From Histomonas meleagridis (lineage: Eukaryota; Parabasalia; Tritrichomonadida; Dientamoebidae): a stretch of DNA of 64,000 nucleotides. Shown here one piece after another: positions 6,063 to 61,857 of this stretch (positions are counted from its first letter, which is position 1; the number at the start of each line of letters is the position of its first letter). Both the position numbers and the translations under genes were made by a program. The stretch lies in assembly GCA_020186115.1 (NCBI GenBank), contig WSYJ01000149.1, positions 496,001 to 560,000 of the forward strand, in the 5' to 3' direction. The notes beneath the pieces were generated by a model that was given only the letters and a program-made list of their open reading frames with translations, did no database searches and was not told the origin of the DNA.

Positions 6063-7545
6063 TTAATATATTTCACATAAATTTTGATCGAGTGGTTGCT
6101 GATCTTCTTCTTCTGTATTATCATTTTCTTCATCATCTATTGCACCATTTTCAAAAAATTCTTTAACTTTTTCTTCCATTTCAGAATTTGGATTAATTAT
6201 CTTAAAATATTCTAAAACGGAATCCTTTGCATCATTATCTCCACCATTTATTGCCTTTCTTATATATCGAAATCCTTTCTTTTCATCCTTTTCACCAGCT
6301 ACACCAGACAAATACATTAGTCCTAAATTTCGATATGTCAATGGATCGCCTGCTTTTTCTGCCATTTTAAAACAATGTAATGCCATTTGAGGATTTGGAT
6401 TTGTTCCTCTTCCACTTAAATACATTATACCCAAATTACTATATGCGCCAACATCACCTCTTCTAGCTCCTTCACCCAAATATTTGAAAGCAAGCATCAT
6501 TTTGTGGAACTCCTTCTCCTTTCATATAAAGACAACCTAAATTATATATTGCACTTGCACTTCCTCTATTTGCTGCTTCACGAAAATACATTACTGCTTT
6601 GTTATCATCAACAGAACCTCCTAATCCCTTATGTAATAAAATACCTAAATTTGTCATTGCAGGAACACATCCACTTTCTGCTGCAATGGAATAATTCATT
6701 CTCGCTTTAAGGTAATTTTGTTCACAACCTAATCCATCACTATACATACGTCCCAAATGAAAACGTGCATTGATAACACCTTTTTCAGCACAAGTTTGGA
6801 AACATTCGAATGCACGCTTATAATCAATAGATGTACCTTTCCCTTGCATTAGAAACTCACCTGCTTTCATCAGAGCTTGTATTTGACCTTTTTGACCTGC
6901 TTCCCAAAAACATTCAAATGCTTTAGCATCATCTTGAGGACAACCATCACCAGATTCATAAAAGTTACCAAGATTAAACAAAGCACCAATGTGTCCTGCT
7001 TTAGCAGCTTTCTCAAACCATTCAAATGATTTAGTAGTGTCCTTCTTAACAACGCCCCATTGTTCCCCTGCAAGATAGAAATTACCAATTTGAACCATAG
7101 CAGGAGCATTTCCATCCTTAGAAGCAATCATAAAATGATCAAATGCTTTATGTCCATTGACTTCACAGCCATAGCCACGATTATAGCAAACACCAAGTTG
7201 AAAATGAGCTTGAGGACTTCCAAGATCAGCTGCTTTTTGCCAATAGTTAAATGCTTCATTAATATCTTTTGGTAAATCATTTATACCTTGGAAATAAAGA
7301 GATGCTAAGTATAAATTGGCTTCAATAGAACCTGCTTTACTTGCCTCACGGATTATGCTAAGACCTTTTTTAATATCTTTTTCAACACCTTTTCCATTAA
7401 ATGTACATGCTCCTATTTGGAAAAGAGCATCTGCATACCCTTGTTCATATGATTTTTGGAAAAATATAATGGCATTAGGATAATCTTCCTTTTTCATAAG
7501 TTCCATTGCAGTTTGATATTGATCATACCCTGGTTTTTGTTCCAT
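6063..7545 (-). pseudogene. Sel1-repeat protein split by a frameshift
   Basis: A 357-residue frame (7545 down to 6472) contains about nine Sel1-like repeats (pattern A..LG..Y..G.GV..D...A...F..AA..G). It ends abruptly in the middle of a repeat after GEGVPQNDACFQIFG. A second frame, 6500 to 6063, continues the same repeat family at once (AFKYLGEGARRGDVGAYSNLG) and ends with an acidic tail. Aligning the repeat register at the junction (about 6485-6500) suggests a 2-base loss or 1-base gain. Either the gene is newly broken or the assembly has a small indel. The intact product would be about 500 residues, a scaffold of helical repeats. A TCACATAA initiator lies just upstream (7551-7558). Confidence 0.8.
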
Positions 7546-8885: not shown

Positions 8886-11069
8886 TTAGTAAAAAATGCA
8901 TGTTCTATTCAACCTCGCATGTTCACGAAGTAATTCAACGATTTCTTTTGCTTCATATTGTGAAGCTATTGTAAGAGCCGTTTGAAGAGAAACGAAAATA
9001 CATCAAAAATTATCTAGAAACTAAAAAACAATTTAATAAATTTTATACAAACATTAAAAACATTTTTTATATTAATATTTATGTCTTCTTGCTGAAGAAG
9101 CAATTTTACTATATCAACAGTACAATTTCTACATGCAATCATTAATGCTGTTTGATAACTTTTAATTTAACTCCAAAAATTTTACCTAAACCAAAAAACA
9201 CATAAATAAACATAAAATTAAACAAATAAAAATTCATTGCATTAATATCAATTCCGCCATTTTTAATAATGAATTTTACTGTTTCAATATCACCACTTAA
9301 ACAAGCGAACATAAGTGCATTATAAAGCTAAAAGAATAAATTCCTAATAATACTATGAAACGTAAAATTTACAAAAAGAAATTTTAATTGATTTAAGTTA
9401 AAATCAGTCTCAGTAATATCGAATCCACCTCTTTCATAAAGTAATTTTACAATTTCAAGGCTACCATTTTCACATGCAGTTAAATAAGCTGTTTTAAGTA
9501 ATTTAATTAAATTTCATTATTTAAAAACAAACTCGAAAACATTAAAACAAACAAAAAATTAACCAAAAAAATGCCTTTTAATGTAATATCAATTCCTTCT
9601 TGTTCGAGAAGTATTTTAACAATTTCTGTATTTCCTCTTTCTGATGCCAAAATTAAAGCATTTCTAAATAATTTGTATAAATTCCAAATTTATTAATAAA
9701 ACACCTCCTTCAAACAAGTTGGAAAAAACTTCTTTCATATTAATATCAATTCCTTTTTGTTCAAGAAGTAATTTAACAATTTCCTGATAATTTTTAGAAC
9801 ATGCATACATAAGTGCAGTTTGGAAAAATTTAATTAAATTCCAAATGTTAAAACTAAACAAAAAATCATTTAATCAAACAGGAAACAAAACAAATAAAAA
9901 TCTTTGAAATTTACATCAATATCAGTTATATCAAGGAAACATTGTACAAGTTCAAAATTTCCAGAGATCACAGAATTAACCAAAATTCTATTTGGAATTT
10001 CATTATCAGCCAAAAATTGTTTTGTCACATATAAATTTCCAATTATTGCTGATTCTAACATAACATTTTCATCGACATTCATATCATCGTTTAATAAAAA
10101 TGATAAAATTTTAAAGTTACCACATTCTATACATTTTATTCCAAGTTTTGTTTTATCAACATTTTCAATTATTTTCCTTTCATAAAAATAATGAAATAAT
10201 TCATTTCGATGAAACTCAATTGCTGCTTCATATGCACCAACAAAAGATGAATTATTTTCCTCACATATTTTAATGATTTCTATGTTTCCTCCTGCAACTG
10301 CAAATTTCCCAGTATTATTTAATGTTGCGCCTTTAGTTATTAAATATTTAAAACATTTAATCGATCCAAAAAAAGCACAATAATCAACAAGTGAAACATT
10401 AAGTTTGTTAATAAAAGAACATCGTTCATATAATGATGGACTAATTGTTTGATTAAAATCATTTTTAACTTCTTGTTGAAGTTTATCAATATCATCATGT
10501 CGTAAAATAATAGAAATTGAAAGAGGATTTATCCCTTCATGAAGATATCGCTTATGAAGCTCCCAATCATTTCGTTGAAGTTCATGAATGTTTGAAAAGA
10601 AATATCCACTAAATATCGTTTTTTCTTTTAAGTTATTAATTTCTGTTTGCGACTTGTGATGTGAAAAGTATTCTGTTTCTTTGTTTTTTATTACTTTTGG
10701 ATTAATTAATTCTTGTTCAACCATATGTTCAAGTATATAATATGATTCATGAGTTTCAAGATTAAGAAGAAACCTACAAAAACATTCAATTATTCCTTGA
10801 AAATTCTTTGAATTTTCTTCTTTTTTATCAATTTCTTTTATGTAATTAAGATAAATATTAACATCTTTCATCTGAGAAACAAAATATGAATAAACTAATT
10901 GTGAAATAATGTTATTAAATGAATATGGAAAATTTTGATCATAAAAATTAAAGGATGATTCAACTATTGATTCAATGTTATCTTCTTTTAAATTTGAGAT
11001 TATATCATCTAGCTCTTGTAAATCTTGAAATAAAAACGTTTTATCGTTTTCATTTTCTTTAGTTGACAT
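8886..11069 (-). CDS. Ankyrin gene A: DUF3447 N-terminal region plus six spacer-separated ankyrin modules
   Basis: The N-terminal part is one continuous frame from the ATG at 11069 to about 9900. It contains the trichomonad DUF3447/ankyrin block (LYERCSFINKLNVSLVDYCAFFGS, KFAVAGGNIEIIKICE). An in-frame ATG 45 bases upstream exists, but MSTKENEN at 11069 fits the paralogues better. Downstream, six ankyrin modules follow at about 9825-9730, 9660-9570, 9495-9405, 9330-9240, 9155-9065 and 8981-8886. Each is open, in the form TALxxAC...EIVKLLL. The last ends in TAA at 8886-8888. Spacers separate them; the last one (8982-9061) is exactly 80 nt. The full protein would exist only if spacers are removed. 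Without that, the product ends a few codons past residue 390. Such proteins usually mediate protein binding. Confidence 0.6.
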
Positions 11070-11129: not shown

Positions 11130-14100
11130 ATGGAAAAATGCGAAAACTTATCAAATCAAGGCAATAGATTCGAAAAATTACAATTTTTACAGAAAATAAT
11201 ACTTGATTTAAGTGAAGAGAACACTAATCAATCATTTCTTTCAATAATTAATATGTTTAATGAAAATTATGCATATTCTTTTAACTTACTTATTAGCCAA
11301 ATAATATATTCATCATTTATCTTACAGAATAATAATTTTAATAAATATTTTAATTTTATGAAAGAAATTGAAATATTCGAAGAAAAACATAAAATAAAAT
11401 CCAAAATATTTTCTGTATTTACACATTTTCTTCTCGGGAAATTATCACAAGAATCACATTATCTCCTTGAAGTTATGATTGAACGTAATGTATTAAAGCC
11501 CAAAGTGCTTGAAAGTCAAAACGAAAAATATTTTTTTCATTACATTTTATATAAAAATTTTAAAGAAGCAAACAACAAAATTTTATTACGTAAAGATTTC
11601 AAAGAAAGTCGCGAAGAACTTTCACAAGATAATTGGAAACTATATAAAAAATTAATTAAAGAAGGAGTTAATCCGAATGAAATTGCGAAAATAATTCGAA
11701 ATGATGAAATCGAAAAACTTCAAGAAATATCATCACAAACAAAATTTGATTTTAATCAAACAATTAAACCATCACTTTATGAAAGATATTCATTTATTAA
11801 CAAAAGAGGTGTTACATTAATTGATTATGCAGCATTTTTTGGATCAGTTAAATGTTTTAAATATTTGCTTATGAATGGGACAAATTTAATTAATACAGGA
11901 AAATATGCTGTTGCAGGTGGAAATGAAGAAATCATTCATTTATGTGAACAAAGTCATACATTGTTTGAAAGACCATATGAAACAGCAATTGAATTTCATC
12001 GGAATGATATCTTGAAATATATTTATGAAAATAAATTTGTTGATATTGAGAATTTAGAAGAATTAGGTATTGAATGCATTTTGCATCATAATTATGAAAT
12101 TTTTTCCTTTTTGCAAAAAGAAGGAATGGAAATCAACGATTCCATTATTAATATCGCAGCTAAAATAGGTAATATATTTCTTGTTAAATATTTTCTTGAA
12201 GAATATCAAATTCCAAAAAATATTTTGATTTTTTCGGTAAAATCGGGAAATATTGAACTGATCCAATACATTTTAAATCAAAATGGAATTGATATCAATG
12301 CTAAAGATATTTATTTGTTTTATTTGATATTTGTTTTAATAATCTGGTGATTCAAAACATTATTTGGAAATTGTTTTAATTATTTAATACAGCACTTATA
12401 ATTGCATCTCAATATCATCAAAATGATATATTTAATTTATTTTTTGAACAAGAAGAAATTGATAATAATCCTAAAGATTTTTATTTGTTGTGTTTTATAT
12501 TTGTTATATTAATTTTCTATTTCAAAATAATATTTGGAAATTATACAAATTATTTAATACTCCTTTTAATTGTGCAGCTGATTGTGTCCATATGGAAATA
12601 ATTAAATTACTTCTTAAACAAGAAGGAATCGATATTAATGCTAAAAACGTTTGTTTATTTATATTAAAATTGATTTTCATAACTTAAAGTTTCATTGTAA
12701 TAATTGGAAATCATTCAAATTATTTAGTACAGCACTTATTTGTGCATCTTATACAAGCAATTCAGAAATAGTTAAATTGCTTCTTGAACAAAAAGATATT
12801 GATGTCAATTCAAAAGATATATATTTATATTATTTAATATAAGTTTCTATAATTTGAAGTTCCAAAATAATGTTTGGAATTCATTTATGTTGTTTCAAAC
12901 AGCACTTATTTGGGTATCTTCTAAAGGAAACATAGAAATAGTTAAAATACTTCTTAAACATGAAGGAATTGATGTCAATGCAAAAGATATTTTTTAATTT
13001 AGTTTAATATTTGTTTTAACCATTTAATATTTCAAAATTATATTTGAAGACTATTTGAACTATTTCAAACAGCACTTATTAAGGCATCTAAAAAAGGTCA
13101 CATCGAAATAGTTAAAATCCTTCTTGAACAAGAAAGAATTGATATTAATATCAAAAATATTTGTTAATTTTTCCCATTGTTTAATACAATATTTTAATGT
13201 TTTGAAATAAAATATGGAAATTATTTGTAATATTTAATACAATTTGTTTTCATGCAATTCAAAATGGAAATACAGAAATCGTTAAATTACTTCTCCAACA
13301 TAAAGGAAATGATGTTAATATCAAAAATATATATTGATATTTATCAAAATTAGATTCTTTTATTTAATGTTTCAAAATAATATTTGGGAATTATTTAAAT
13401 TATTTGATACAGCACTCATTTTGGCTTCAGAAAAGGGATATATAGAAATAGTTAAATTACTTCTTGACAAAAAAGGTATTGATTTCAATGCAAGAAATGT
13501 TTATTTAATTATTATAAAATTAATTTCAATAATTTTTTGTTTTAAAATAATGTTTGGAAATTACTCAAATTGTTTAACACAGCTCTTATTTTAGCATCTG
13601 AAAAGGGATACACAGAAATAGTAAAATTACTTCTTGAACAAAACGGAATAGATATCAATGTTAAAGACATATATTTGATTGATTTGATTTTTCATTTAAT
13701 AATTTGATATTTCAAAATAATTTTTGGAGATTATTAAAATTATTTAAAACAAGTTTGATTTTGGCAGCAGAAAATGGTCATACAGAAACTGTTAAATTAC
13801 TTCTTGAACAAGAAGGAATTGATATTAATGCGAAAGATAATTAGTTATCTTATTTAAACTTTATTTAAATAATTTGACATTAAAATATAATATTTGGAAA
13901 TTATATAAAATATTTAGAACAGCACTTATGTTTGCATCTGATAATGGTCATAAAGACATAGTTCAAATGCTTCTTTTACAAGAAAAAATTGAAGTTAATT
14001 CTAAAGAAATTTATTTCTGTCACAAAAATTTTCAGAAAATACTTTGCTATTTCAAACAAATTTATGGAAATTATTCAAATTATTTTATACAGCACTTATG

Positions 14101-15545
14101 TTTGCATCTTCAAGCGGTAAAACAGAAATAGTTGAAATACTACTTAAACAAAAAACAATTGACATCAATGCTATAGATGTTTACATGATTTAATTGATTT
14201 TTCATGTAATAATTTGAAATATAATAATAACATTTGGAAATAATTTAAACTACTTCAAACTGCACTTATAAAAGCATCTGAAAGAAATCATACGATAATA
14301 GTTAAGTTACTTCTTGAAAATAAAATTGATATTAACATTAGAGATGTTAACTTGTTTTATTTAAATTTTATAGAAATAATTTGAAATTACAAAATAATAT
14401 TTGGAATATTTTTTAAATAAATTGGAGCTCACTAATTTATGCATCATATAATGGCTTTACAGAGATAGTTAAATTACTTCTTGCACAAGAAGGAATTGAT
14501 ATTAATGCGAAAAACATTTATTACTTTAATTTAATGTTTAATTTAATAATTTGAAATATTATAATATCATTTGGAATTAATTCATGTTAATTCAAACAGC
14601 ACTTATGAAAGCATCTGAAAAAAATCATACTGAAATAGTTAAGTTACTTCTGGAAAATGAAGGAATTAATATTAATGATAGAGATGTTGTTTTTGTTTAT
14701 TTAAATTTTATTTAAATAATTTGAAATTACAAAATAATATTTGGAATATTTTCCAAAGTTATTGGAATGCATTAATTTATGCTTCATATGATGGTAATAT
14801 AGAAACAGTTAAATTACTTCTTGAACAAAAAGGAATTGATATCAATGCTATAGATTTTTATTTGTTTTGTTTGATTTTTTATTTGGTAATTTAAAATATT
14901 ATAAAAAAATTCGGAATTAATATAAATTAATTCAAACAGCACTAATTTGTGCTTCTTCAAATTGTAAAATCGAAATAGTTAGATTACTTCTTGAACAAAC
15001 AGAAATTGATATCAATTCTAAAGATATTTACTTTATTTCATATGTAATTTATTTTAATTATTTGGAATTTTGAAATAATATTTGGAAATTGTTTAAATAT
15101 TTTTGGACTGCACTTATGATTGCATCTGAAGAAGGTTATACAGAAATAGTTAAATTATTAATCCAACAAAAAGGAATCGATATTAATGCCGTTGATTATG
15201 TTTACGTATTCTGTTTAATTTTTATTTAAATACTTTGGAATTAAAAAATAATATTTGGAAATTGTTTAAGCAATTTTGGACTGCATTAATTTGCGCATCT
15301 TATAATGGGCATGTTAATATCGTTAAATTGCTTGTTGAACAAAAAGGAATTGATATTAATATATTAGATATTAATTTATTATATTTAAAATTTGTTTTAA
15401 TAATATAATATTTCACAATAATGCATGAAAATTGTTGATAATTTTTGAAACAGCACTTATGATTGCTTCTGAAACAGGACACAACGAAATAGTAAAAATA
15501 CTAATTGAACATGGAGGAATTGAAATAGCTGATAAAAATAACTAA
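11130..15545 (+). CDS. Ankyrin gene B: DUF3447 N-terminal region plus 19 spacer-separated ankyrin modules
   Basis: Bases 11130-12308 are one open frame: about 390 residues with the DUF3447 block (SLYERYSFINKRGVTLIDYA, KYAVAGGNEEIIHLCE) and a first ankyrin ending NAKD. Nineteen further modules follow, starting at about 12389, 12559, 12729, 12899, 13069, 13239, 13409, 13579, 13749, 13919, 14089, 14259, 14426, 14596, 14766, 14936, 15107, 15280 and 15450. I translated each: about 30 codons of the form TALIxASxxGHTEIVKLLLEQEGIDINAKD, with no stop and no frame-breaking indel; module 12 lacks one codon. The last ends in TAA at 15543-15545. The intervening spacers are 80 nt in 17 of 19 cases. The predicted spliced product has about 1,000 residues. 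If spacers are not removed, translation stops at 12350. Confidence 0.6.
12309..15449 (+). repeat. Array of about 170-bp units: 90-nt ankyrin module plus 80-nt phase-breaking spacer
   Basis: Each unit has a conserved coding part and a spacer measured from the Asp codon of NAKD to the Thr codon of the next TALI. Spacer lengths in order: sixteen of 80, then 81, 83 and 80. Spacers start with a loose RTTTAT. They share a 3' half containing CAAAATAATATTTGG, then AAATTATTTAAATTATTT, then one variable codon before ACA. No GT...AG pair or ACTAAC-type branch site recurs. Confidence 0.85.
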
Positions 15546-28259: not shown

Positions 28260-30575
28260 TTAAATATGATTAATGAATTTTTCTTTTTTGAAATCATCAG
28301 CAAATGGATCTTCATCAATATTATTCGTTGATGTTCCCATTGCAAATGTATTTTCTTTTTCATTTTGATTTTCTTCGAAACTTTTTGCTTCTTGTTCATT
28401 ACTTATTTGTTTCTTATTATGAATTCGCATCAAAACTATGATAAGTATTGCAATTATTACAATTACGACAACTGCAACGCAAACACTTATAATTATAATT
28501 GTGTTTCTATTATCATCATTAATATTTTCATTTTGATATATAATTGTAAAGAAATTACTATAATATATGTAATAAGTCGAATATACAACAACAGTATATT
28601 CGTAATAAATAAATTCACTCAAAACATAAGTTAATGCCGAATTAAAAATAGAAACAGAAAATGAATTCGAATACGTCGAATTATAAATTTTTATTGTTTG
28701 CGTAATAGATAATGATTGTGTTAATGTTATTGTATTCGTTAATGTTATACCATTCGAATATGAAAAAGTAAATGAATTCGAAACAACAAATGAAATTTCA
28801 TATGACTTTGTTAGTGTATTCGTCTTAGTGAATGTATTCGACTTAGTGAACGTATTCGACTGAGTAAATGTGTTTGAGTATGTGTTCGATCGTGTGAACG
28901 ATTGCGTCGGTGGGAGACATTCATCAATGACTTTTCCTTTACTGACTTTTATACCGCAGAATGTTTGGCCGTTATATGAATCGATTGTCATGACACTTCT
29001 GATTAAATTGTTGTTATCAAATACATTCGATGTATTCGTTGGGACTGTTTCGCCATAATAAAAAATACATGTGAGATTGCAGCATGATGCAAATGCTTTG
29101 CTTCCAACTGACGTTATATTGCATGGAATTTCAATGTTCCTTAATGAAATACAATTACAGAATGCATTAATATCAATTACACTGACATTTGTTGGGAATG
29201 TATATGTTTCGTTTGTTTTCCCGCATGGATAACATATAATTTTAGTGACGTTTTTGTTATATAAAATCCCATCTTCGTTATAATTGCAATAATTTGCGTT
29301 TTCGCTGGAAACTTTAATCATTTGAAGGTTGGTACAAAATTCAAATGAAGAAATTCCAATTCCTGTTACTTTATTGGGAATTGTAATATTTACTAATGAT
29401 GTGCAATATGAAAATGCATAAGTTCCAATTCTTTCCACATTTTCTCCAATAAAAACTATTCTCAAATTAGAACATGATGAAAATACATAATTTCCAATTT
29501 CTGTTACTTTGTTTGGAATTGTAATATTTACTAATGATGTGCAATATGAAAATACAGAAGTTCCAATTGTTGTTACATTTTCTCCAATAAAAACTATTAT
29601 CAAATTAGAACATGAATAAAATGCATAAATTCTAATGTCTGTTACTTTGTTTGGAATTGTAATATTTACTAATGATGTGCAATATGAAAATACAGAAATT
29701 CCAATTGTTGTTACATTTTCTCCAATAAAAACTATTCTCAAATTAGAACATGATGAAAATGCAGAATTTCCAATTAAAGTGATTGATTCATTCATTTTGA
29801 TACTTTCCAAATTATTCCACTCATAAAAACAATTATCTCCAATTCCAGTGATGGAACCTCCAATAATAACATGAATTGTTTCATTTTTATATAACATTCT
29901 ATTATCATAATCTGTTGAATTTGAAATAGTAAGTGTTTTAGTTGAATTATCAAAAGTTGAGAAACATTTTGTGAAAAATGTAAAAAGAAAAATCAAACAA
30001 AAATTTTCATTTCGATGTATTTTATGGAATTTATATAGTAAAAAAGATGTAATTGAACAAAAATTATATAAAAGCAAAAAGATAAAAGATAAAATCAAAT
30101 AAATGACATTGATTTTAAAGATACAAAAATTGTTTTCTTTTAAAATAATATTAAAAATAAAATCAAATATTTGAGATTTGAAAATTTTATGATTTGATAA
30201 ATGAGAATGAAAAGGTAATGAATGGGCATATGCTTGGTTGAAATAAAAAGAACAATTTGTTAAAAAAATTAAAGGGAAATATAATTTGTTATGAAAATTT
30301 AAAGATTGATGATAATCATAAATCAAACTGTTGAATTTTTTGGAGGAAGTATGATTAAATGACAAAAGCATGTTCCTAAGAGGCGATAGGATCTGCCCTT
30401 TTTTGATTTGGTGTAGTTGATATTGAAAATTTAAATGATAATTACAAATAATATTGAAAATAGTTTTACTTAGAGTGATAACATAGAAGAAGGTATGGGA
30501 AAGCGATGTCCTTGTAGCAAGATATGATGTTTTATTCGTGTGTTTCAAAATGTTCGTTCTGGTTTGAAATGACAT
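28260..30575 (-). CDS. BspA-like leucine-rich-repeat surface protein, copy 1
   Basis: 771 residues. An N-terminal region of about 195 residues contains several hydrophobic stretches; the last (FCLIFLFTFFTKCF) lies right before the ectodomain and could act as a signal anchor. Then come TpLRR/BspA-type repeats of about 23 residues (IGNSAFSSCSNLRIVFIGENV, SLVNITIPNKVTEIG), then a Ser/Thr/Asn stalk of repeated TFTKSN units. One transmembrane helix follows (IIIISVCVAVVVIVIIAILIIV), and a cytoplasmic tail. The tail holds EDPFADDF, which combines DPF and FxDxF-type endocytic adaptor motifs. BspA proteins act at the cell surface, probably in adhesion. A near-identical ectodomain is encoded at 32435-34783. 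Confidence 0.85.
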   Translation of the reverse strand: MSFQTRTNILKHTNKTSYLATRTSLSHTFFYVITLSKTIFNIICNYHLNFQYQLHQIKKGQILSPLRNMLLSFNHTSSKKFNSLIYDYHQSLNFHNKLYFPLIFLTNCSFYFNQAYAHSLPFHSHLSNHKIFKSQIFDFIFNIILKENNFCIFKINVIYLILSFIFLLLYNFCSITSFLLYKFHKIHRNENFCLIFLFTFFTKCFSTFDNSTKTLTISNSTDYDNRMLYKNETIHVIIGGSITGIGDNCFYEWNNLESIKMNESITLIGNSAFSSCSNLRIVFIGENVTTIGISVFSYCTSLVNITIPNKVTDIRIYAFYSCSNLIIVFIGENVTTIGTSVFSYCTSLVNITIPNKVTEIGNYVFSSCSNLRIVFIGENVERIGTYAFSYCTSLVNITIPNKVTGIGISSFEFCTNLQMIKVSSENANYCNYNEDGILYNKNVTKIICYPCGKTNETYTFPTNVSVIDINAFCNCISLRNIEIPCNITSVGSKAFASCCNLTCIFYYGETVPTNTSNVFDNNNLIRSVMTIDSYNGQTFCGIKVSKGKVIDECLPPTQSFTRSNTYSNTFTQSNTFTKSNTFTKTNTLTKSYEISFVVSNSFTFSYSNGITLTNTITLTQSLSITQTIKIYNSTYSNSFSVSIFNSALTYVLSEFIYYEYTVVVYSTYYIYYSNFFTIIYQNENINDDNRNTIIIISVCVAVVVIVIIAILIIVLMRIHNKKQISNEQEAKSFEENQNEKENTFAMGTSTNNIDEDPFADDFKKEKFINHI

Positions 30576-32434: not shown

Positions 32435-34783
32435 TTATAGCCATTGGTCCTGGTCTTCCAACACGAGTTCATTATATTCCTGATTTACTTCATCTGATCT
32501 CATATCGCTTCCAGTTGAATTTTTAGTTTCGAATTTTATCGCTGTTGATTCGCTGTTACTTTTCTTTGATTTCTTCACAAGGAATATGATAATTCCCATA
32601 ATCAGCAAAACTGCAATTATTGTGCCGCAGATAATACCTATCAAAGCCTTTTGAGAAATACCATTTCCAACAGGATTTATGACGTCGATAATTGTGAAGA
32701 AATTCGAATAAAAACTATATAACGTCGAATAACGAGTCACAATATATTCATAATAAATTAAATCTGTTCTGACATATGTACTACTAACTCCAATTAAAGT
32801 CAAAACATATGAATAAGAATATGTACCAGAAATTGTAACAGTTTCAGTGATGGAATATGAATTCGTAAACGAAAGTGTCAGCGTTACATTCGAAGGTAAT
32901 AATGTATTCGACTGAGTAAATGTATTCGTCTTAGTGAATGTATTCGACTTAGTGAACGTATTCGACTGAGTAAATGTGTTTGAGTATGTGTTCGATCGTG
33001 TGAACGATTGCGTCGGTGGGAGACATTCATCAATGACTTTTCCTTTACTGACTTTTATACCGCAGAATGTTTGGCCGTTATATGAATCGATTGTCAGGAC
33101 ACTTCTGATTAAATTGTTGTCATCAGGTACATTCGATGTATTCGTTGGGACTGTAAAAAAAAAAAAAAAAATACATGTGAGATTGCAGCATGATGCAAAT
33201 GCTTTGCTTCCAACTGACGTTATATTGCATGGAATTTCAATGTTCCTTAATGAAATACAATTACAGTATGCATTAATATCAATAACACTGGCATTTGTTG
33301 GGAATGTATATGTTTCGTTTGTTTTCCCGCATGGATAACATATAATTTTAGTGACGTTTTTGTTATATAAAATCCCATCTTCGTTATAATTGCAATAATT
33401 TGCATTTTCGCTGGAAACTTTAATCATTTGAAGGTTGGTACAAAATTCAAATGAAGAAATTCCAATTCCTGTTACTTTATTGGGAATTGTAATATTTACT
33501 AATGATGTGCAATATGAAAATGCATAAGTTCCAATTCTTTCCACATTTTCTCCAATAAAAACTATTCTCAAATTAGAACATGATGAAAATACATAATTTC
33601 CAATTTCTGTTACTTTATTGGGAATTGTAATATTTATTAATGATGTGCAATATGAAAATGCAGAAGTTCCAATTCTTTCCACATTTTCTCCAATAAAAAC
33701 TATTATCAAATTAGAACATGATGAAAATACATAATCTCCAATTGTTATTACTTTGTTTGGAATTGTAATATTTATTAATGATGTGCAATATGAAAATAAA
33801 TAAGTTCCAATTCTTTCCACATTTTCTCCAATAAAAACTATTCTCAAATTAGAACATGATGAAAATACATAATTTCCAATTTCTGTTACTTTGTTTGGAA
33901 TTGTAATATTTACTAATGATGTGCAATATGAAAATACAGAAATTCCAATTGTTGTTACATTTTCTCCAATTAAAACTATTCTCAAATTAGAACATGATGA
34001 AAATGCAGAATTTCCAATTAAAGTGATTGATTCATTCATTTTGATACTTTCCAAATTATTCCACTCATAAAAACAATTATCTCCAATTCCAGTGATGGAA
34101 CCTCCAATAATAACATGAATTGTTTCATTTTTATATAACATTCTATTATCATAATCTGTTGAATTTGAAATAGTAAGTGTTTTAGTTGAGTTATCAAAAG
34201 TTGAGAAACCATTTGCGAACAGTAAAACAAAAAACACTAAAAACAAATTAATGTTTTTATGTCGCAAAAAAGTTTTCGATAAGTGAAATTTAATCAAAAA
34301 CACAATAAATGAAACTATATAAATGTTATCATTTCTAAAAAATGAAAAATTGCTTTCATTTAATGAAAAAAATTTAATGAATTTATGAATTTTTGCCCAA
34401 AAAATGAAAATTTCTTTTTTTGTTTGCGTTGATAATAATATGTTTTTTGATCGCATAAGATCAATAAGGTATGTTTGGTAACATGTTTTTTTTGATTTTA
34501 CCAAAATGTTAGCAGGTTGTTGATCATCAAATGTGTTGAAATTTTTGTTGTTAAAAAGATGATTAAATGGTGATAAAGAACTTGTATTAGTAGACGCAAA
34601 ATTACATTGGTTTTCAATTTGATTTTGTTGCTGGAATTGTAAATGTTTATTAAAAACAAAGGTGAAAACTATTTTACTTATAAAAATGAGAAGAATAAAG
34701 TCTTGGGTTTTTGAAGCTCTTAAAACAAAATGATGAGGTTTGATAAAGTACTTCAAAATTGTTGTTCTGTTTGGGTGTGACAT
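32435..34783 (-). CDS. BspA-like leucine-rich-repeat surface protein, copy 2
   Basis: 782 residues with the same layout as copy 1. The N-terminal region is alignable but clearly diverged (MSHPNRTTILK versus MSFQTRTNILK). The last hydrophobic stretch, NLFLVFFVLLFANGFS, lies before the ectodomain. The repeats are nearly identical to copy 1, but with one more IGENV pair (four against three). The stalk is Ser/Thr/Asn-rich, one helix follows (ALIGIICGTIIAVLLIMGII), and the tail is unrelated to that of copy 1. It contains YNEL, a YxxPhi endocytic motif. A run of 17 A at 33155-33171 encodes five consecutive Phe where copy 1 has FYYGE. Confidence 0.85.
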   Translation of the reverse strand: MSHPNRTTILKYFIKPHHFVLRASKTQDFILLIFISKIVFTFVFNKHLQFQQQNQIENQCNFASTNTSSLSPFNHLFNNKNFNTFDDQQPANILVKSKKTCYQTYLIDLMRSKNILLSTQTKKEIFIFWAKIHKFIKFFSLNESNFSFFRNDNIYIVSFIVFLIKFHLSKTFLRHKNINLFLVFFVLLFANGFSTFDNSTKTLTISNSTDYDNRMLYKNETIHVIIGGSITGIGDNCFYEWNNLESIKMNESITLIGNSAFSSCSNLRIVLIGENVTTIGISVFSYCTSLVNITIPNKVTEIGNYVFSSCSNLRIVFIGENVERIGTYLFSYCTSLINITIPNKVITIGDYVFSSCSNLIIVFIGENVERIGTSAFSYCTSLINITIPNKVTEIGNYVFSSCSNLRIVFIGENVERIGTYAFSYCTSLVNITIPNKVTGIGISSFEFCTNLQMIKVSSENANYCNYNEDGILYNKNVTKIICYPCGKTNETYTFPTNASVIDINAYCNCISLRNIEIPCNITSVGSKAFASCCNLTCIFFFFFTVPTNTSNVPDDNNLIRSVLTIDSYNGQTFCGIKVSKGKVIDECLPPTQSFTRSNTYSNTFTQSNTFTKSNTFTKTNTFTQSNTLLPSNVTLTLSFTNSYSITETVTISGTYSYSYVLTLIGVSSTYVRTDLIYYEYIVTRYSTLYSFYSNFFTIIDVINPVGNGISQKALIGIICGTIIAVLLIMGIIIFLVKKSKKSNSESTAIKFETKNSTGSDMRSDEVNQEYNELVLEDQDQWL

Positions 34784-40944: not shown

Positions 40945-43080
40945 TTACTTTTCTAAGAGTAATTTAACTATTTCTGTATGACCTCTTGAAGATGCATGCA
41001 TAAGTGCTGTATTAAATAATTTAAATGATTTTTAAATATTATTTTGAAATATAAATTCTAAATAAAACAAATAAATATCTTTAGCATTAATATCAATTCC
41101 TTCTTGTTCAAGAAGTAATTTAACTATTTCTGTATGACCTTCTGAAGATGCCAAAATAAGTGCTGTTCTAAATAATTTAAATAATTTCCAAATATTATTT
41201 TGAAATATAAAATTATTAAAATAAATTTCATTTTTAGCATTAATATCAATTCCTTCTTGTTCAAAAAGTAATTGAACGATTTCTGTATGACCTTTATAAG
41301 ATGCCCACATAAGTGCTGTATCAAATAATTTCAATAATTTTCAAATATTATTTTGAAATATAAAATTATTAAAATAAATTTTAAATAAAACAAATAAATT
41401 TTATCTTTAGCATTAATATCAATTCCTTCTTGTTCAAGAAGTAATTTAACTATTTCTGTATAACCTTCATCAGATGCATAAATAAGTGCTGTATTAAATT
41501 ATTTAAATAATTTCCAAATATTATTTTGAAATATAAATTTTAAATAAAACAAATAAATATCTTTAGCATTAATATCAATATTCTCTTTTTCAAGAAGTAA
41601 TTTAACTATTTCTGTATGACCATATTTAGATGCCCACATAAGTGCTGTATTAAATAATTTAAATAATTTCCAAATATTATTTTGAAATATAAAATTATTA
41701 AAATAAATATTAAATAAAACAAATAAATATCTTTAGCATTAATATCAATTCCTTCTTGTTCAAGAAGTAATTTAACTATTTCTGTATGACCATTATAAGA
41801 TGCCCACATAAGTGCTGTCCAAAATAATTTAAATGATTTCCAAATATTATTTTGAAATATTAAATTATTAAAATAAATTTCATATAAAACAAATAAATAT
41901 CTTTAGCATTAATATCAATTCCTTCTTGTTCAAGAAGTAATTTAACGATTTCTGTACGACCATTTTCAGATGCTAAAATAAGTGATGTTTTAAATAATTT
42001 AAATAATTACCAAATATCATTTTGAAATATAAAATTATTAAAATAAATATTAAATAAAACAAATAAATATCTTTAGCATTAATATCAATTCCTTCTTGTT
42101 CAAGAAGTAATTTAACTATTTCTGTATTACCGTAATAAGATGCCCAAATAAGTGCTGTATAAAATAATTTAAATAATTTCCAAATATTATCTTGAAATAG
42201 AAAATTATTAAAATAAATATTAAATAAAACAAGCAAATATCTTTAGCATTAATATCAATTCCTTCTTGTTCAATAAGTAATTTAACTATTTCAATATAAC
42301 TTTTTTTAGATGCTAATATTAATACTGTTAGAAATAATTTAAATAATTTCCAATTATTATTTTGAAATATAAAATTATTAAAATAAATATTAAATAAAAC
42401 AAATAAATATCTTTAGCATTAATATCAATTCCTTCTTGTTCAAGAAGTAATTTGACTACTTTTGTCTGATATTTTGAAGATGCATGAAAAAGCGCTGTTC
42501 TAAAAAAATGGAAGAATTTTTAAATTTTATTATCAAACAACAATAAAATAAATTAAATTTTAAATATAACATATAAAAATCCTTTGAATTGATATCAATT
42601 TCCCCTTGTTTAAAAAGTAATTGAATTATATCAATATAACCATAACGCGATGCTTTCATTAGTGCATTTTCAAATAATTTTAATAATTCCCAAAACAAAT
42701 TTAACAATATTAAATTTAACAGGGAAGCATTAATCATAACAAATAACTATCATTAATTGTAACATCTTTTCCCTCTTTCTCAATAAGTAATTCAACTATT
42801 TCTGTATATCGTTTTTCAGATGCCAATATAAGTGCTGTTTTAAATATTTGAAAAAATTTCCAAAAATTATTTCCAAATTTCCTTTTAACAAATCAAATAT
42901 TATTTCTGTCATTAATATTAATTCCCTTTTGTTCAAGAAGTAATTTAACTGTTCTTGTATTACCATTTTGAGTTGCATACATAAGTGCTGTTGAAAATGA
43001 TTTAAATATTTTCCTAATATTATTATGAAACATAAAATTATTAAAACGAAAATAAAACAAAATAAATTTAAGTCTTTAGC
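40945..43080 (-). repeat. Ankyrin module/spacer array of gene C
   Basis: About 150-170-bp units on the minus strand. Five or more consecutive distal units are almost identical, including spacers, which points to recent unit amplification. The short 66-nt spacers lack a 14-nt block (TTTTAATAATTTTA) found in the 80-nt ones. Confidence 0.8.
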
Positions 43081-44310
43081 ATTAATATTACTTCTTTTCT
43101 GTTTAAGAATATACTGAACAAGTTCAAAATTTTTTGATTCCGAAGATTTACATAAAAGATCCACTGTAATGATATTTCTTGGTAGAAAATGTTTAACAAG
43201 ATACAAGTTACCAGTTCTTGCTGACTCTTTGAAGATAGAATCATTAAATCCTTTACTGGAAATGTCTTCTAAAAATGATAGAAGTTCATAGTTTCCATAT
43301 TTAATGCAAAGAAATTTTAAATCATTTTCTTTTTGTTGAGCGTATTCTTCTATTTTATTTTCATAAAGATATTTAAAGATATCATTTTGATGAAATATAA
43401 TTGCTGTTTCATATGCATTTTGAAAAGAGATATGATTTTGTTCACATAAATGAATAATTTCTAAATTTCCACCTGCAATTGCATATTTACCTGTGTTATC
43501 TATTTTAGAATCATTCATAAGTAAATATTTAAAGCATTTAACAGCAGAAAAAAATGCTGCATAATCAATTAATGTAACATTTTCTTGATTAATAAATGAA
43601 CACCTTTCATAAAGTGATGGTTTAATTCTTTGGTTAAAATAAAAATCATTTTGTGATGATATTTCTTGAAGTTTTTCTATTTCATCATTTCGAATTATTT
43701 TCGCAATTTCATTTGGATTTTGTCCTTCTTGAATTAATTGTTTATGAATTTCCCAATCATTCTTTGAAAGTTCTTTATAGTTTTTCATAAGAAAAATATA
43801 TATTGGATCATTTTTGGAATAAATATGTGGATACTTTTTTGATCTATGATGGATGAAATAATTTGTTTTTATATTTTTGATAATATTTGTTTCAATTATT
43901 TTTTGTTCAATCATTTTCTCAATTAAATAATATGATTCTTGTGATTTAATTCCACATATATAATCAATAAAAATTGTAATAACTTTTAGATAACTTTGTT
44001 CTATTTCTTCTTTTGTTTGAATTTTTTCTAAATATTTGATATATAAATCACTTAAATATGAATTCTTATGTGAATAAAATGATAAATATATCAAATTACT
44101 TATAGTAACATTAAATGAATATGGAAATTTCTTATCAAATAATTTTATTGTTTGTTCAATAGCTAAATCAAAATTTTCATCAGTTAAATTAAATATGATT
44201 TTTTGAAGTGAAGTAAGTAATGTTAAATATACACCAGAATCTTTTGAGTTCTTTTTTGATTTTTTAGAGAAATTTGCATTAACATCGTGAAAAACTTGAT
44301 TATCATTCAT
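40945..44310 (-). CDS. Ankyrin gene C: DUF3447 N-terminal region plus about 13 spacer-separated ankyrin modules
   Basis: ATG 44310 (MNDNQVFHDVNANFSKK) starts a continuous frame to about 43080 with the DUF3447 block (SLYERCSFINQENVTLIDYAAFFS). A longer frame from 44388 would overlap the uL15 gene and is rejected. About 13 modules follow, the first near 42990 and the last ending LLLEK and TAA at 40945. The seven most distal are nearly identical to the TALMWASYNGHTEIVKLLLE consensus. Spacers are mostly 80 nt, with 83, 66, 63 and 66 at the distal end. Two of the in-phase spacers (66 nt) contain stops, so read-through would not produce the protein either. Orthologues are unknown; the protein is probably an interaction scaffold. 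Confidence 0.6.
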
Positions 44311-44360
44311 AAAATTAATTTTATTATAATGGCTTCGGAGGTTATCGGCGGTTTGGCCGT

Positions 44361-44365
44361 CCTTT
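44361..44365 (+). promoter_or_regulatory. CCTTT box of the uL15 gene
   Basis: CCTTT lies 7 nt before the ATG, within CCGTCCTTTTTCGGG. The uL1 gene has the closely similar CCGTCCTTTCTG. This resembles the T. vaginalis M5 start-site motif. Confidence 0.6.
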
Positions 44366-44371
44366 TTCGGG

Positions 44372-44821
44372 ATGCCAACTCGTTTCAAGAAGTCAAGGAA
44401 GCTTCGTGGCCAAGAATCAATGGGTTACGGTCGTGTTGGAAAGCACAGGAAGTCACCAGGAGGTTGCGGTAATGCTGGTGGTCAACATCATCAAAGAACT
44501 TGGTTCGATCGTTATCACCCAGGATACTTCGGTAAGGTTGGTATGCGCCGTCTTCATGTATTCAAGTGCCGCGAATGGGAACCAATCATCAATATTGACA
44601 AACTTTGGACATTAGTTCCTGAAGAAGTTCGCAACCAAGCTGCTTCTAAAAAACAAGGCGATGCAGTTCCAGTCATTGATTGCGTTGCCAATGGATATTT
44701 CAAAGTTGTTGGTCGTGGTGAACTCCCACAAATTCCATTAATTGTTCGTGCCAAAGATTTCTCACAATCTGCTGAAAGAAAGATCAAAGCTGCAGGAGGT
44801 GCATGTGAAAAGGTTCAATAA
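44372..44821 (+). CDS. RPL27A: Large-subunit ribosomal protein uL15 (L27a)
   Basis: 149 residues, the full family length. [14 protein letters not shown] at the start, [18 protein letters not shown], then [25 protein letters not shown] and APVID-type [19 protein letters not shown] are family hallmarks. It is a core component of the 60S subunit near the exit tunnel and E site. Codon choice is C-ending and biased, as in other highly expressed genes here. The gene is divergent from ankyrin gene C with 61 bases between the ATGs. The stop is followed by AAC, giving TAAAC. Confidence 0.97.
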
Positions 44822-50049: not shown

Positions 50050-50277
50050 AAGTTTAAATGGTTATACAGAAATAGTTAAATTGCTTCTTGAACAAGAAGG
50101 AATTGATATTAATGCTAAAGATATTTTTATATTCAAAATTTATTTTAACAATTTGATGTTTCAAAATAATAAACGAAATTATTTTTGACAGTACTTATGT
50201 ATGCATCTGAAAATGGGTATACAGAAATCGTTCAACTACTTCATGAACAAGAATGAATTGAAATTAATACCAAAGAT
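50050..50277 (+). pseudogene. Ankyrin relic with internal stop
   Basis: A partial module (NGYTEIVKLLLEQEGIDINAKD) is followed by a 65-nt spacer of the same type as in genes A-D. A second module (TVLMYASENGYTEIVQLLHEQE) follows, in which a TGA replaces the usual Gly codon, then IEINTKD. No N-terminal part is present. The relic shows how these arrays look once selection is lost. Confidence 0.8.
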
Positions 50278-58844: not shown

Positions 58845-61712
58845 CTAACCAACTTGAAAATTTTTAAGTAATTCTACAATTTCGAGGTGCTTATTTTTAG
58901 ATGCATACATAAGAGCAGTACAAAATTTCATGAATAAATTTTATATATTATATTGAAATATTATTTTATTGAAATAAATTTTAAATAAAACATACAAACA
59001 TCTTTTAAGCCAACACGAATTTTTGCTTGTTTAAGAAGTAATTTAACAATTTCTAGATGACCATTTTCTGCTGCAAACATAAGTGCTGTTTTAAATATTT
59101 ACAATAATTTCCAAATATTGCTATGAAATATGAATTTTTGTAAATGAATTTTTAATAACACTAAAAAACATCTCCTAAATTAATAAAATTTTTTTCTTGT
59201 TCAAGAAGTAATTTAACAACTTCGATGTGACCATAGTGAGATGCCATTATAAGTGCTTTACTAAATAATTATAATAAATGTCAATTAATATATAGAAATT
59301 TCAAATAGTTAAAATAAATCCAACATAAAATAAATAAATGTTATAATTATTGACACTATTTTTTTGTTTTTCAAGAATTAATTTAACAATTTCTGCATAA
59401 CCAAACTCTGATGCATATATTAATGCTGTACCAAAGAATTCAAACATATTCCTATTATTACTTTAAAACATTTTATCACTTAAACAAACATCTAATAAAA
59501 ATCAATAATATTTTCATTATTTATATCAATTCCTTCTTGTTCTAATAGTAATTTAACAATTTCTGCATAACCAAACTCTGATGCATAAATTAATGCTGTA
59601 CCAAAGATTTCAAACATATTCCAATTATTACTTTAAAACATCTTATCACTTAAACAAACATCTAATAAAAATCAATAATATTTTTATTATTTATATCAAT
59701 TCCTTCTTGTTCTAATAGTAATTTAACAATTTCTGTGTAACCTTTTTTAGATGCTTTAATAAGTGCCGTATCAAAAAATTTAAATAATTTCCAAATATTA
59801 TGCTTTAACCCAAAAAGATTAAAACTATTATAAAATAGAACAAATTAATACCTTGGATATTGATATCAATTCCCTTTTGTTCAAGAAGTAATTGAACAAC
59901 TTCAAAACGATTATTGCTTGCTGCACATTTAAGTGGTGTATTAAATCATTTTGACAAACTTGGAGTAATATTTGAGAATTTCAAATCATAAAATCAAACA
60001 TTAAACTAAACAAATTAATATCACTATCATTAACATCAACTCCTTTTCGTTCAAGAAGTAATTTCACTATTTCAACATGGCCATTACTCGATGCTCTCAT
60101 AATTGCTGTTTTATATAAATTAAATCATTTCCAAAAAATATTTTAAAAAATAAAATTATCTAAACAAATATCATATATAACAAATAAATATCTTTAGCAT
60201 TAACATCAATATCTTTTTGTTCAAGAAGTAATTTGACTGTTTCGATATGACCATTTTGAGATGCATAATAAAGTGCTGTTCTAAATAATTTAAACCATTT
60301 CCAAATATTATTTTAAAAAATTAAATTATCTAAACAAATAGCAAATATAACAAATAAATATCTTTAGCATTAACATCAATATCTTTTTGTTCAAGAAGTA
60401 ATTTAACAATTTCGCTATAACCTCTTTTAGATGCTATTATCAGTGCCGTTTTAAATATATTATATAAATTTGAAACATTATTTTTAGATTTTAAATTATC
60501 AAAACAAAAATCATTTTGAATATTAATCTCAATATCTTTTTGCTCAAGAACATATTTAACAAGCTCAATATTTCCTGATAAAACTGAATAAGTCAATATA
60601 AATCTTGGCAAATTAATTCCCAAATGAAGTTCCTTAAATATATATATAAAACCATGTGATGCAAATTCTAAAATAAGTTTATCATTAATTTTTAGGGAAT
60701 TCTTTATCAAAAAAGATAACACTTCATAGTTATTATATAAAACACATTTTGTTCCTAATTCTTCTAAATCTATTTTCTGTATCTTTTTTTCAAAAAGATA
60801 AAAAAAGATTTCTTTTTGATGAAATTCAATTGCTGTTTCATATGCATCTTCAAATGATGAATGATTTTGTTCGCATAAATGAATAATTTCTTCATTTCCA
60901 CCTGCAACTGCATATTTTCCAGTATTGTTTACATTTGCACCATTCATAAGTAAATATTTAAAACATTTAACAGATCCAAAAAATGCTGCATAATCAATTA
61001 ATGAAACATTTCTTTGATTAATGAATGAACATCTTTCATAAAGTGATGGTTTAATTGTTTGATTAAAATTAAAATTATTTTGAGATGATATTTCTTGAAG
61101 TTTTTCTATTTCATCATTTCGAATTATTTTCGCAATTTCATTCGGATTTTGTCCTTCTTCAATTAATTTCATATGTAATTCCCAATCATTCTTTGAAAGT
61201 TCATCATAATTATTAAAAAATTCCTCCCAAAATGGATCTACGTATTCCAATTTTGACATTTTATAGTGTAACATGCGGTGTGCATATAATAAAGATTTCC
61301 TAATTTGAACAGTTTTTGAATCGATTAAATTATATTTTATCATTTCTTCAAGAAGAAAATTCGATTCTCGGATTTTTGACCTTAGAAGAATTGTTGTGAA
61401 TACATAAATTATTTGTGATTTACGATTCTTATTTTCTTCATCTATTTTAATTTCCTTAATTATATGAATACATGTCATGATATCAATTTTGCGTGATTGG
61501 AAAGAAGAAAAAATTAAATAGCAAAGCATTTCCGTAAAAGAATATGTACCATCATCTAATTTTATGATCAAATCAAGTGATTTTTTGATATTCTCCTCTT
61601 TGAAATAAAATAATATATGATATAATTTAAGGGCATATGATAAAAATTGATTTTTGTGTTGTTGAGTTTCTTCAAAACTAAAAGTATTTAATCTTTTATC
61701 TTGATTTAGCAT
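58845..61712 (-). CDS. Ankyrin gene D: DUF3447 N-terminal region plus ten spacer-separated ankyrin modules
   Basis: ATG 61712 (MLNQDKRLNTFSFEETQQH) starts a continuous frame with the DUF3447 block (SLYERCSFINQRNVSLIDYA, KYAVAGGNEEIIHLCEQ). An upstream ATG at 61832 would extend into the divergent promoter. The first spacer (about 60 nt) happens to be in frame and open, so the frame runs to 60330 through one more module (TALIIASKRGYSEIVKLLLEQ). Nine more modules follow to a TAG at 58845-58847 (KNFQVG at the end). Two spacers I measured (60280-60359 and 59940-60019) are exactly 80 nt. Two units near 59387-59735 are nearly identical. Role unknown; probably a protein-interaction scaffold. Confidence 0.6.
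59387..59735 (-). repeat. Two nearly identical tandem 170-bp module/spacer units
   Basis: The block containing CCAAACTCTGATGCAT at 59401 recurs at 59571, exactly 170 bases later, with only a few differences in both module and spacer. This is a recent duplication with the same period as gene B. Confidence 0.8.
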
Positions 61713-61857
61713 GAAAAAAATGTTACTGAAACCGCTGACGATAAAGCGTCGGTTATATATCGGCACAGAATCTTTTGACAAGTCAAACAACTTTTGCCGT
61801 GTCAAAATATATTCGCTGAATATTTTATGCAACTGCCAACGAAATCATTTTTGTTTA
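61713..61857. promoter_or_regulatory. Divergent promoter of ankyrin gene D and the UBA-like gene
   Basis: Contains an imperfect palindrome, AACCGctGACG (61730-61740) and CGTCGGTT (61747-61754), and an initiator TCATTT at 61845-61850 that would give an 11-nt leader for the plus-strand gene. Confidence 0.5.

Follow-up and report, generated by a model that had tools for sequence, protein, structure and literature searches.

Trichomonas vaginalis has 63 active introns (PMC12316389), short sequences of the GT–AG type with the branch site fused to the 3′ end, and in Tritrichomonas musculus 5.66% of genes contain introns (PMC11978803); 573 introns were predicted for Histomonas meleagridis (PMC8529796). 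Introns with borders other than GT–AG occur beside a normal spliceosome in euglenids (PMC4770533) and diplonemids (PMC12621601), where the two ends of the intron pair, and the mechanism that removes the euglenid nonconventional introns is unknown (PMC4770533). In the parasitic protist Amoebophrya, introner elements are repeated introns with non-canonical ends that carry inverted and direct repeats (PMC7789003). Here we describe an ankyrin gene of the poultry parasite H. meleagridis, gene B, located in a 64,000-nucleotide stretch of contig WSYJ01000149.1 (the window; GC content 29.1%), in which nearly every repeat module is separated from the next by a short spacer. Like the T. vaginalis introns, the spacers are short intervening sequences in a parabasalid whose genome contains U2 and U6 genes, but they have neither GT–AG borders nor a fused branch site and they number thousands rather than tens; as a class they lack both the 5′ GTATGT-like motif and the fused CTAACACAYAG. 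Unlike the euglenid and diplonemid introns, they do not pair their ends and they form one near-uniform family at one position in the protein, and unlike the Amoebophrya introners, their ends show no excess pairing and all eight of the best spacer matches examined lie between ankyrin modules.

Gene B begins with an open reading frame (ORF) of 406 residues (11130–12350) that matches Ank and DUF3447 in Pfam (Ank_2, E = 5.5e-13, 49.7 bits with a cut-off of 27.3; DUF3447, E = 8.6e-10). Its predicted structure is poor (pLDDT 54, from 4 sequences). The modules also match above the cut-off, a two-module ORF of the related gene C scoring 67.3 bits for Pfam Ank (cut-off 21.1), and the closest solved structures are designed ankyrins. 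Gap measurement gave 20 modules (12225–15539) and 19 gaps, 17 of 80 nt, one of 81 nt and one of 83 nt, and confirmed the counts and coordinates of the first-pass annotation as well as the in-frame TGA that it had noted in the 81-nt spacer (Table 1). Its statement that the modules of gene B are free of stops also stands; none is among the stop-bearing modules listed, and the last runs into TAA. It had treated the spacers as a property of this one gene, and that description holds for gene B, but the scope was too narrow, as the family contains thousands of spacers.

Table 1 Gene B, its modules and spacers, and related ankyrin features, in window coordinates
Feature	Position	Strand	Remarks
Gene B N-terminal domain	11130–12308	+	393 aa, ATG to first NAKD
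N-terminal ORF tail	stop 12348–12350	+	13 codons into spacer 1
Last ankyrin repeat of N-terminal ORF	12225–12308	+	
Spacer 1	12309–12388	+	80 nt; last codon 12386–12388 coding
Module 1	12389–12478	+	
Spacer 2	12479–12558	+	80 nt
Module 2	12559–12648	+	
Spacer 3	12649–12728	+	80 nt
Module 3	12729–12818	+	
Spacer 4	12819–12898	+	80 nt
Module 4	12899–12988	+	
Spacer 5	12989–13068	+	80 nt
Module 5	13069–13158	+	
Spacer 6	13159–13238	+	80 nt
Module 6	13239–13328	+	
Spacer 7	13329–13408	+	80 nt
Module 7	13409–13498	+	
Spacer 8	13499–13578	+	80 nt
Module 8	13579–13668	+	
Spacer 9	13669–13748	+	80 nt
Module 9	13749–13838	+	
Spacer 10	13839–13918	+	80 nt
Module 10	13919–14008	+	
Spacer 11	14009–14088	+	80 nt
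Module 11	14089–14178	+	
Spacer 12	14179–14258	+	80 nt
Module 12	14259–14345	+	87 nt, one codon shorter
Spacer 13	14346–14425	+	80 nt
Module 13	14426–14515	+	
Spacer 14	14516–14595	+	80 nt
Module 14	14596–14685	+	
Spacer 15	14686–14765	+	80 nt
Module 15	14766–14855	+	
Spacer 16	14856–14935	+	80 nt
Module 16	14936–15025	+	
Spacer 17	15026–15106	+	81 nt, in-frame TGA
Module 17	15107–15196	+	
Spacer 18	15197–15279	+	83 nt
Module 18	15280–15369	+	
Spacer 19	15370–15449	+	80 nt
Last module	15450–15545	+	no spacer after; then Asn, stop TAA 15543–15545
Gene A	8919–11069	−	same architecture; N-terminal domain 9900–11069; 6 modules 8919–9819
Gene C	40948–44388	−	same architecture; N-terminal domain 43072–44388; 13 modules 40948–42991
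Gene D	58866–61832	−	same architecture; N-terminal domain 60513–61832; 11 modules in chain
Orphan fragment	50051–50277	+	two modules, 65-nt spacer; stop in second module

The wider analysis used a 43.28-Mb, 121-contig H. meleagridis genome, in which the window lies on contig C84, for all genome-wide searches; the published assembly of the virulent strain has 43.4 Mb in 187 contigs with 28.66% GC (PMC8529796, Table 1). The window and 41 fetched loci together gave 405 junctions between modules, 376 of them distinct. Modules were detected as stop-free segments of at least 12 residues scoring at least 15 bits, so that a module broken in the middle could escape, and the set omits loci L001–L008, which overlap with later loci, L037–L042 and L044–L046, which are contiguous ankyrin genes, hits below 15 bits and single modules. 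The loci are a non-random sample, L009–L028 being the nearest relatives of the N-terminal domain and L052–L061 having been chosen for strong module matches, several of them for 63-nt spacing. Among the 405 junctions, one 308-nt gap (L047) and one overlap at a frameshifted module (L053) are the candidates for such a broken module, four gaps are shorter than 50 nt (12, 32, 33 and 46 nt), and part of the gaps that differ by ±1 nt reflect misplaced hidden Markov model boundaries.

The modules are kept free of stops to a degree that the spacers are not. Only 2 of the 363 distinct internal modules contain a stop, and for the 354 modules of 90 nt the two found compare with 152 in simulations (minimum 135 in 200 runs) in which the observed number of changes was scattered randomly according to the mutation spectrum of the spacer, a deficit of ~75-fold. 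This is not for want of divergence, which averages 13.7 of 90 positions from the consensus in modules and 10.2 of 80 in spacers. Residue diversity is concentrated at module codons 5, 8, 9, 11 and 12 (0.88, 0.87, 0.63, 0.66 and 0.57, respectively) and at the codon directly before the module, spacer codon 78–80 (0.87–0.88); module codon 4, mostly Ile or Met, has a diversity of 0.59. Of these sites, the one directly before the module and codons 8 and 9 are equivalent to randomised contact positions in designed ankyrins. For pairs with a spacer divergence below 0.1 (7,779 pairs among 302 units), the ratio of non-synonymous to synonymous substitution (dN/dS) was 2.38 at these six variable codons, 2.73 at codon 78–80 alone and 0.69 elsewhere, a contrast that is partly of our own selection because the codons were picked from the observed diversity; at divergences of 0.1–0.2 the six codons gave 2.04 and the others 0.71. 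The pairs are not independent and we claim no P value. The six variable residues occur in 272 distinct combinations among the 302 units. By these computations, the modules together with spacer codon 78–80 evolve as translated protein and the rest of the spacer does not. The substitution-ratio check proposed in the first-pass annotation thus found no neutral pattern in the modules but one patterned by site.

Its companion claim, that modules are kept as protein whilst spacers are kept by length, survives only in the first part, on the evidence of stops, indels and site-wise dN/dS. Spacer length is not strictly kept, since the family has spacers of 80, 63, 66, 60, 71 and 83 nt and variants of ±1 nt: among the 376 distinct spacers, 80 nt accounts for 260, 63 nt for 60, a nominal 81 nt for 11, 83 nt for 10 and 66 nt for 7, with other lengths rare, and indels of ±1, −9, −14, −17 and −20 nt are found in spacers between intact modules. 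For both flanking frames of the 260 spacers of 80 nt, the frequency of stops is about that expected if columns were independent, an approximate expectation. Codon 78–80 is the clear exception, with no stops against 25.5 expected, and a smaller one is codon 18–20 in the 3′ frame (0 against 8.4). Closer to the 3′ end, codon 57–59 has 38 stops against 48.7, codon 72–74 has 7 against 10.4 and codon 75–77 is TTT in almost every spacer; at the 5′ end, coding includes the Asp codon, and codon 4–6 has 6 stops against 8.4. Since codon 78–80 is both stop-free and hypervariable, we place the 3′ coding boundary immediately upstream of it, and the earlier description of the spacers as non-coding holds for most of their length but not for this last codon. 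We infer a 5′ boundary 0–5 nt past the Asp codon and a 3′ boundary at about nt 72–78 of 80; with these coding limits on both sides the removable part would be about 71–77 nt in the main class, the exact joints falling within these ranges. The 63-nt class has an extra variable codon, mostly Asn, Lys, Glu or Asp, between the Asp codon and the ATTTATTT motif.

Contrary to the earlier statement that there is no consistent terminal dinucleotide, the family has a consensus: when the spacer is taken as nt 1–77 of 80, 228 of the 260 start with AT and 18 with GT (246 together), and 240 end with TT. The best-kept letters in a diverse set are T2–T3, T22–T23, T37, T42, T55–G58 and T76–T77. No sign of a fold was found in the spacers: the consensus fold has the same amount of pairing as independent columns would give, the minimum free energy (MFE) has a z-score of about −0.2, mutual information gives no helix, and the ends form a duplex of −3.90 kcal/mol compared with −3.80 in shuffled sequences, with 1.76 expected end pairs compared with 1.98. 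The only direct repeat seen by eye is an imperfect 8-mer pair, ATTTATTT and AATTATTT, and excision between its two members was rejected because the offset of 69 nt gives the wrong frame. Two further candidate borders failed; for a TA-bounded excision, only 49% have A as the base past the 3′ T, and a GT...ACAG site gives the wrong frame and its AG is often lost where the codon is replaced by a synonym or by Ser or Pro.

Ordinary introns of H. meleagridis are of the form GTATGTTT...CTAACACAYAG. The 3′ motif occurs at 87 places in the genome against 25 for the reversed control, partly in satellite, and 9 of 15 loci fetched from the 87 have GTATGT within 160 nt upstream, a proportion for which the chance rate was not computed. 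Introns of this type are not mentioned in the available sections of the Histomonas genome paper (PMC8529796). Two SNF1-like kinases (L072 and L074, named by eye) contain apparent canonical introns, GTATGT...CTAACACA(C/T)AG, at the position LLTG|KLPFDD, where, by eye, joining the exons would give LLTGKLPFDD and LLAGYLPFDD, and L063, L064, L065, L068, L071, L075 and L077 also have apparent canonical introns. Satellite-like copies of CTAACACATAG, mostly ~825 bp apart, lie at C9:2518–24247, C53:618886–620502, C55:913585–915242 and C84:1707642–1717685. Earlier patterns with a short gap after GTATGT gave 0 matches in the first form and 1 in the second against 10 in the control, the gaps being too short for the introns later seen. 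U2 was found at 2 places over the cut-off and U6 at 1 place, where its 43.7 bits fall slightly short of the cut-off of 44; both have the usual pairing regions when read by eye; a U1 search gave no match in the genome, but as the controls gave none either it is uninformative. From these counts, strict splice signals are present in the genome and absent from the spacers, where CTAAC occurs in 0 of 376, GTATGT anywhere in 6 of 376, and the inferred 3′ end has no AG. The first-pass annotation was therefore right that the trichomonad splice signal is missing from the spacers, in an organism that has it elsewhere.

The genome contains at least 105 related N-terminal matches, gene B among them, a lower bound because these were scored out of 3,460 first-look candidates; 95 of the 105 are stop-free and 10 contain a stop. 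In all 20 stretches fetched around the nearest of them (L009–L028), a module array begins within 202 nt of the end of the match. A 32-position pattern of the spacer 3′ end, with at most 3 mismatches allowed, matches the genome at 4,764 places and its reversed control at none, and the eight best spacer matches lie between NAK[D/N/T] and x-T-[A/S/T]-[L/F]. A search with fixed flanks, from the Lys codon of NAKD to the Thr codon of TALI, found 1,587 junctions with 60–90 nt and none with 3–30 nt; among the matches listed, 79 of 100 imply by eye an 80-nt spacer. Spacers sit mostly between modules. One clean spacer-free junction was found in the wider family (L047). Downstream of the last recognised module, 38 arrays have 350 nt or more of sequence; in 31 of them a stop falls within 45 codons of where this module starts, two other arrays, L019 and L035, run by eye into a partial spacer, and the 3′ spacer motif follows the last module in 2 of the 38. 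L011 and L013, though different loci, have a common unusual array C-terminus (ITDKANDQMEFFPFW), and L009 contains two near-identical arrays, inverted, within 7 kb (33–1540 on the forward strand and 443–1948 of the reverse strand).

Identity within arrays is 0.781 for spacers and 0.816 for module cores, compared with 0.802 and 0.830 between arrays, and since units of the same array are no more alike than units across arrays, the modules behave as a shared pool. Fungal NOD-like receptors also have near-identical repeats in which diversifying selection acts on a few hypervariable codons of the interaction surface (PMC12222747), but the greater likeness of repeats within one gene that marks this type is not found in the Histomonas arrays. 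A Pfam scan of two of the N-terminal proteins gave no NOD-type domain. The coding repeats of the fungal receptors are contiguous, unlike the Histomonas modules, which are each separated by a spacer. Ankyrin proteins with DUF3447 are similar in that module and N-terminal domain match Pfam above cut-off, but the Histomonas arrays are interrupted at nearly every joint. We found no relatives of the arrays in genome_contigs or viral_contigs and no published account of such arrays in the open-access literature; in the available text of PMC10063853 the sole mention of ankyrin is a KANK1-like protein, and the main text of PMC11978803, as far as available, does not mention ankyrins.

The best explanation, and one we consider fairly probable, is that the spacers belong to a second, non-canonical and unstructured class of intron and as such are removed from the RNA. 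On this account the proteins of gene B and its relatives would consist of a DUF3447/ankyrin domain at the N-terminus and, behind it, a solenoid built of 30-residue modules, and the transcript would carry between the modules an intervening sequence of about 71–77 nt (51–60 nt in the short class) that starts 0–5 nt past the Asp codon of NAKD (in the short class, one codon further on) and ends directly before the codon preceding TALI. These sequences would leave the RNA ahead of translation without GTATGTTT...CTAACACAYAG or a conserved fold, through a relaxed spliceosome or something else. Joints within an exchangeable spacer would allow modules to be shuffled without damage to the frame, and interchangeable spacers may thereby help to reshuffle modules into a hypervariable binding repertoire. 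The fuller proposition, of ~4,800 near-uniform, AT-rich, unstructured introns of a previously undescribed class, with neither GT–AG borders nor a branch signal, removed by machinery other than the strict spliceosome and forming the interchangeable joints of a hypervariable ankyrin recognition repertoire, is more tentative and we hold it with less than even confidence.

Several observations weigh against removal from RNA, or against the coding pattern on which it rests. No known machinery fits it. Ankyrin repeats are joined by the motif D-xxGx-T; the predicted joint, D-x-T or D-z-x-T, lacks the usual xxG and would give repeats of 31–32 residues, 2–3 short of the contiguous linker, whilst the spacer-free junction of L047 has a 4-residue linker, Asn-Arg-Gly-Lys, with xxGx intact. 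Of the 31 early-stopping arrays, 3 (L010, L011 and L023) stop within a partial spacer. The mean diversity of the spacer, 0.233, is little below the 0.295 of module third positions, so that constraint on the spacer is modest and its signals are weak, and a stop-free path with a single frameshift exists through 200 of the 260 spacers of 80 nt. As for the modules, dN/dS in distant pairs falls to 1.19 at the variable codons (0.59 elsewhere), over whole modules it is 0.86–0.96 in close pairs and 0.54–0.78 in distant ones, first and third positions are equally variable (0.292 and 0.295), silent differences are also raised at the variable codons (0.251 compared with 0.119), and the variable codons come from the same data as their dN/dS.

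A special case of RNA removal would be an ordinary spliceosome using cryptic, relaxed sites, with ATTTATTT as a degenerate 5′ site and an unusual 3′ end. The presence of U2 and U6 is consistent with this, and the first eight letters of the spacer consensus differ from GTATGTTT at three positions; given the missing CTAAC and AG, the rarity of GTATGT and the strict introns elsewhere in the genome, we consider it unlikely. Alternatively the ribosome might translate or skip each spacer, by programmed frameshift, stop readthrough or bypass. The single-shift paths speak for this, as do the 3′ frame, which is open throughout the consensus spacer, and the 35 of 60 spacers of 63 nt that are open in frame. 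But stops are near column independence in spacers, as at codon 57–59, and excluded from modules, length changes of ±1, −14, −17 and −20 nt leave downstream modules intact, and 19 successive shifts would be expected to give almost no product. On these near-neutral stops and free indels we reject translation of the spacers by frameshift or readthrough. Bypass elements have a hairpin in the skipped stretch and matching take-off and landing codons; here there is no conserved fold, and a take-off at GAT ATT TAT does not, by eye, match a landing at TTT before codon 78. With the absence of end pairing, this rejects both bypass, which the first-pass annotation had offered as one possibility, and a euglenid-like intron. 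Frameshifting and bypass are thus disfavoured, and ribosomal readings as a whole are very unlikely.

The arrays might instead be a library at the DNA level, the modules being silent cassettes recombined into a spacer-free expressed gene and each array making only an N-terminal protein of ~400 residues. Hypervariability of the modules at surface codons, the shared and shuffled pool and the stop-free state of most N-terminal matches are what such a library would give. No spacer-free expressed copy was found, however, in the fixed-flank genome search that gave 1,587 spaced junctions; all 20 arrays examined lie close behind an N-terminal match, and most end in a C-terminal stop, which a silent library does not need. 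We regard the library as less likely than removal from RNA, and quite improbable. That the arrays are decaying pseudogenes, with modules intact only through recent amplification, would account for the few broken copies, namely the stops in 2 of 363 internal modules and in 10 of 105 N-terminal matches, but the deficit of stops persists despite divergence and dN/dS is patterned by site, which makes decay extremely improbable.

Elsewhere in the window, the spacers of gene C are of 80, 63, 66 and 83 nt, and the first member of the module chain of gene D is the last N-terminal repeat. The orphan fragment has a ribosomal protein gene on one side and a phosphoglycerate-mutase-like gene on the other (named by eye). 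On the reverse strand there are two similar BspA-like leucine-rich repeat ORFs (by eye; 28260–30575 and 32435–34783) with 138-bp tandem repeats, and a Sel1-like repeat gene (by eye; 6063–7545) that is split at 6472–6500 into two overlapping ORFs by a frameshift or an assembly error.

If the spacers are indeed removed from RNA, H. meleagridis would carry about 5,000 introns of unknown type, compared with the 573 predicted (PMC8529796) and the 63 of T. vaginalis (PMC12316389). Such introns, lacking terminal dinucleotides, a branch site and structure, would open a new removal mechanism to direct testing in one organism, and the ankyrin family may be missing or truncated in the published gene models and proteomics databases of Histomonas. 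An ankyrin repertoire of this size, its variation centred on contact codons, resembles a protist recognition system.

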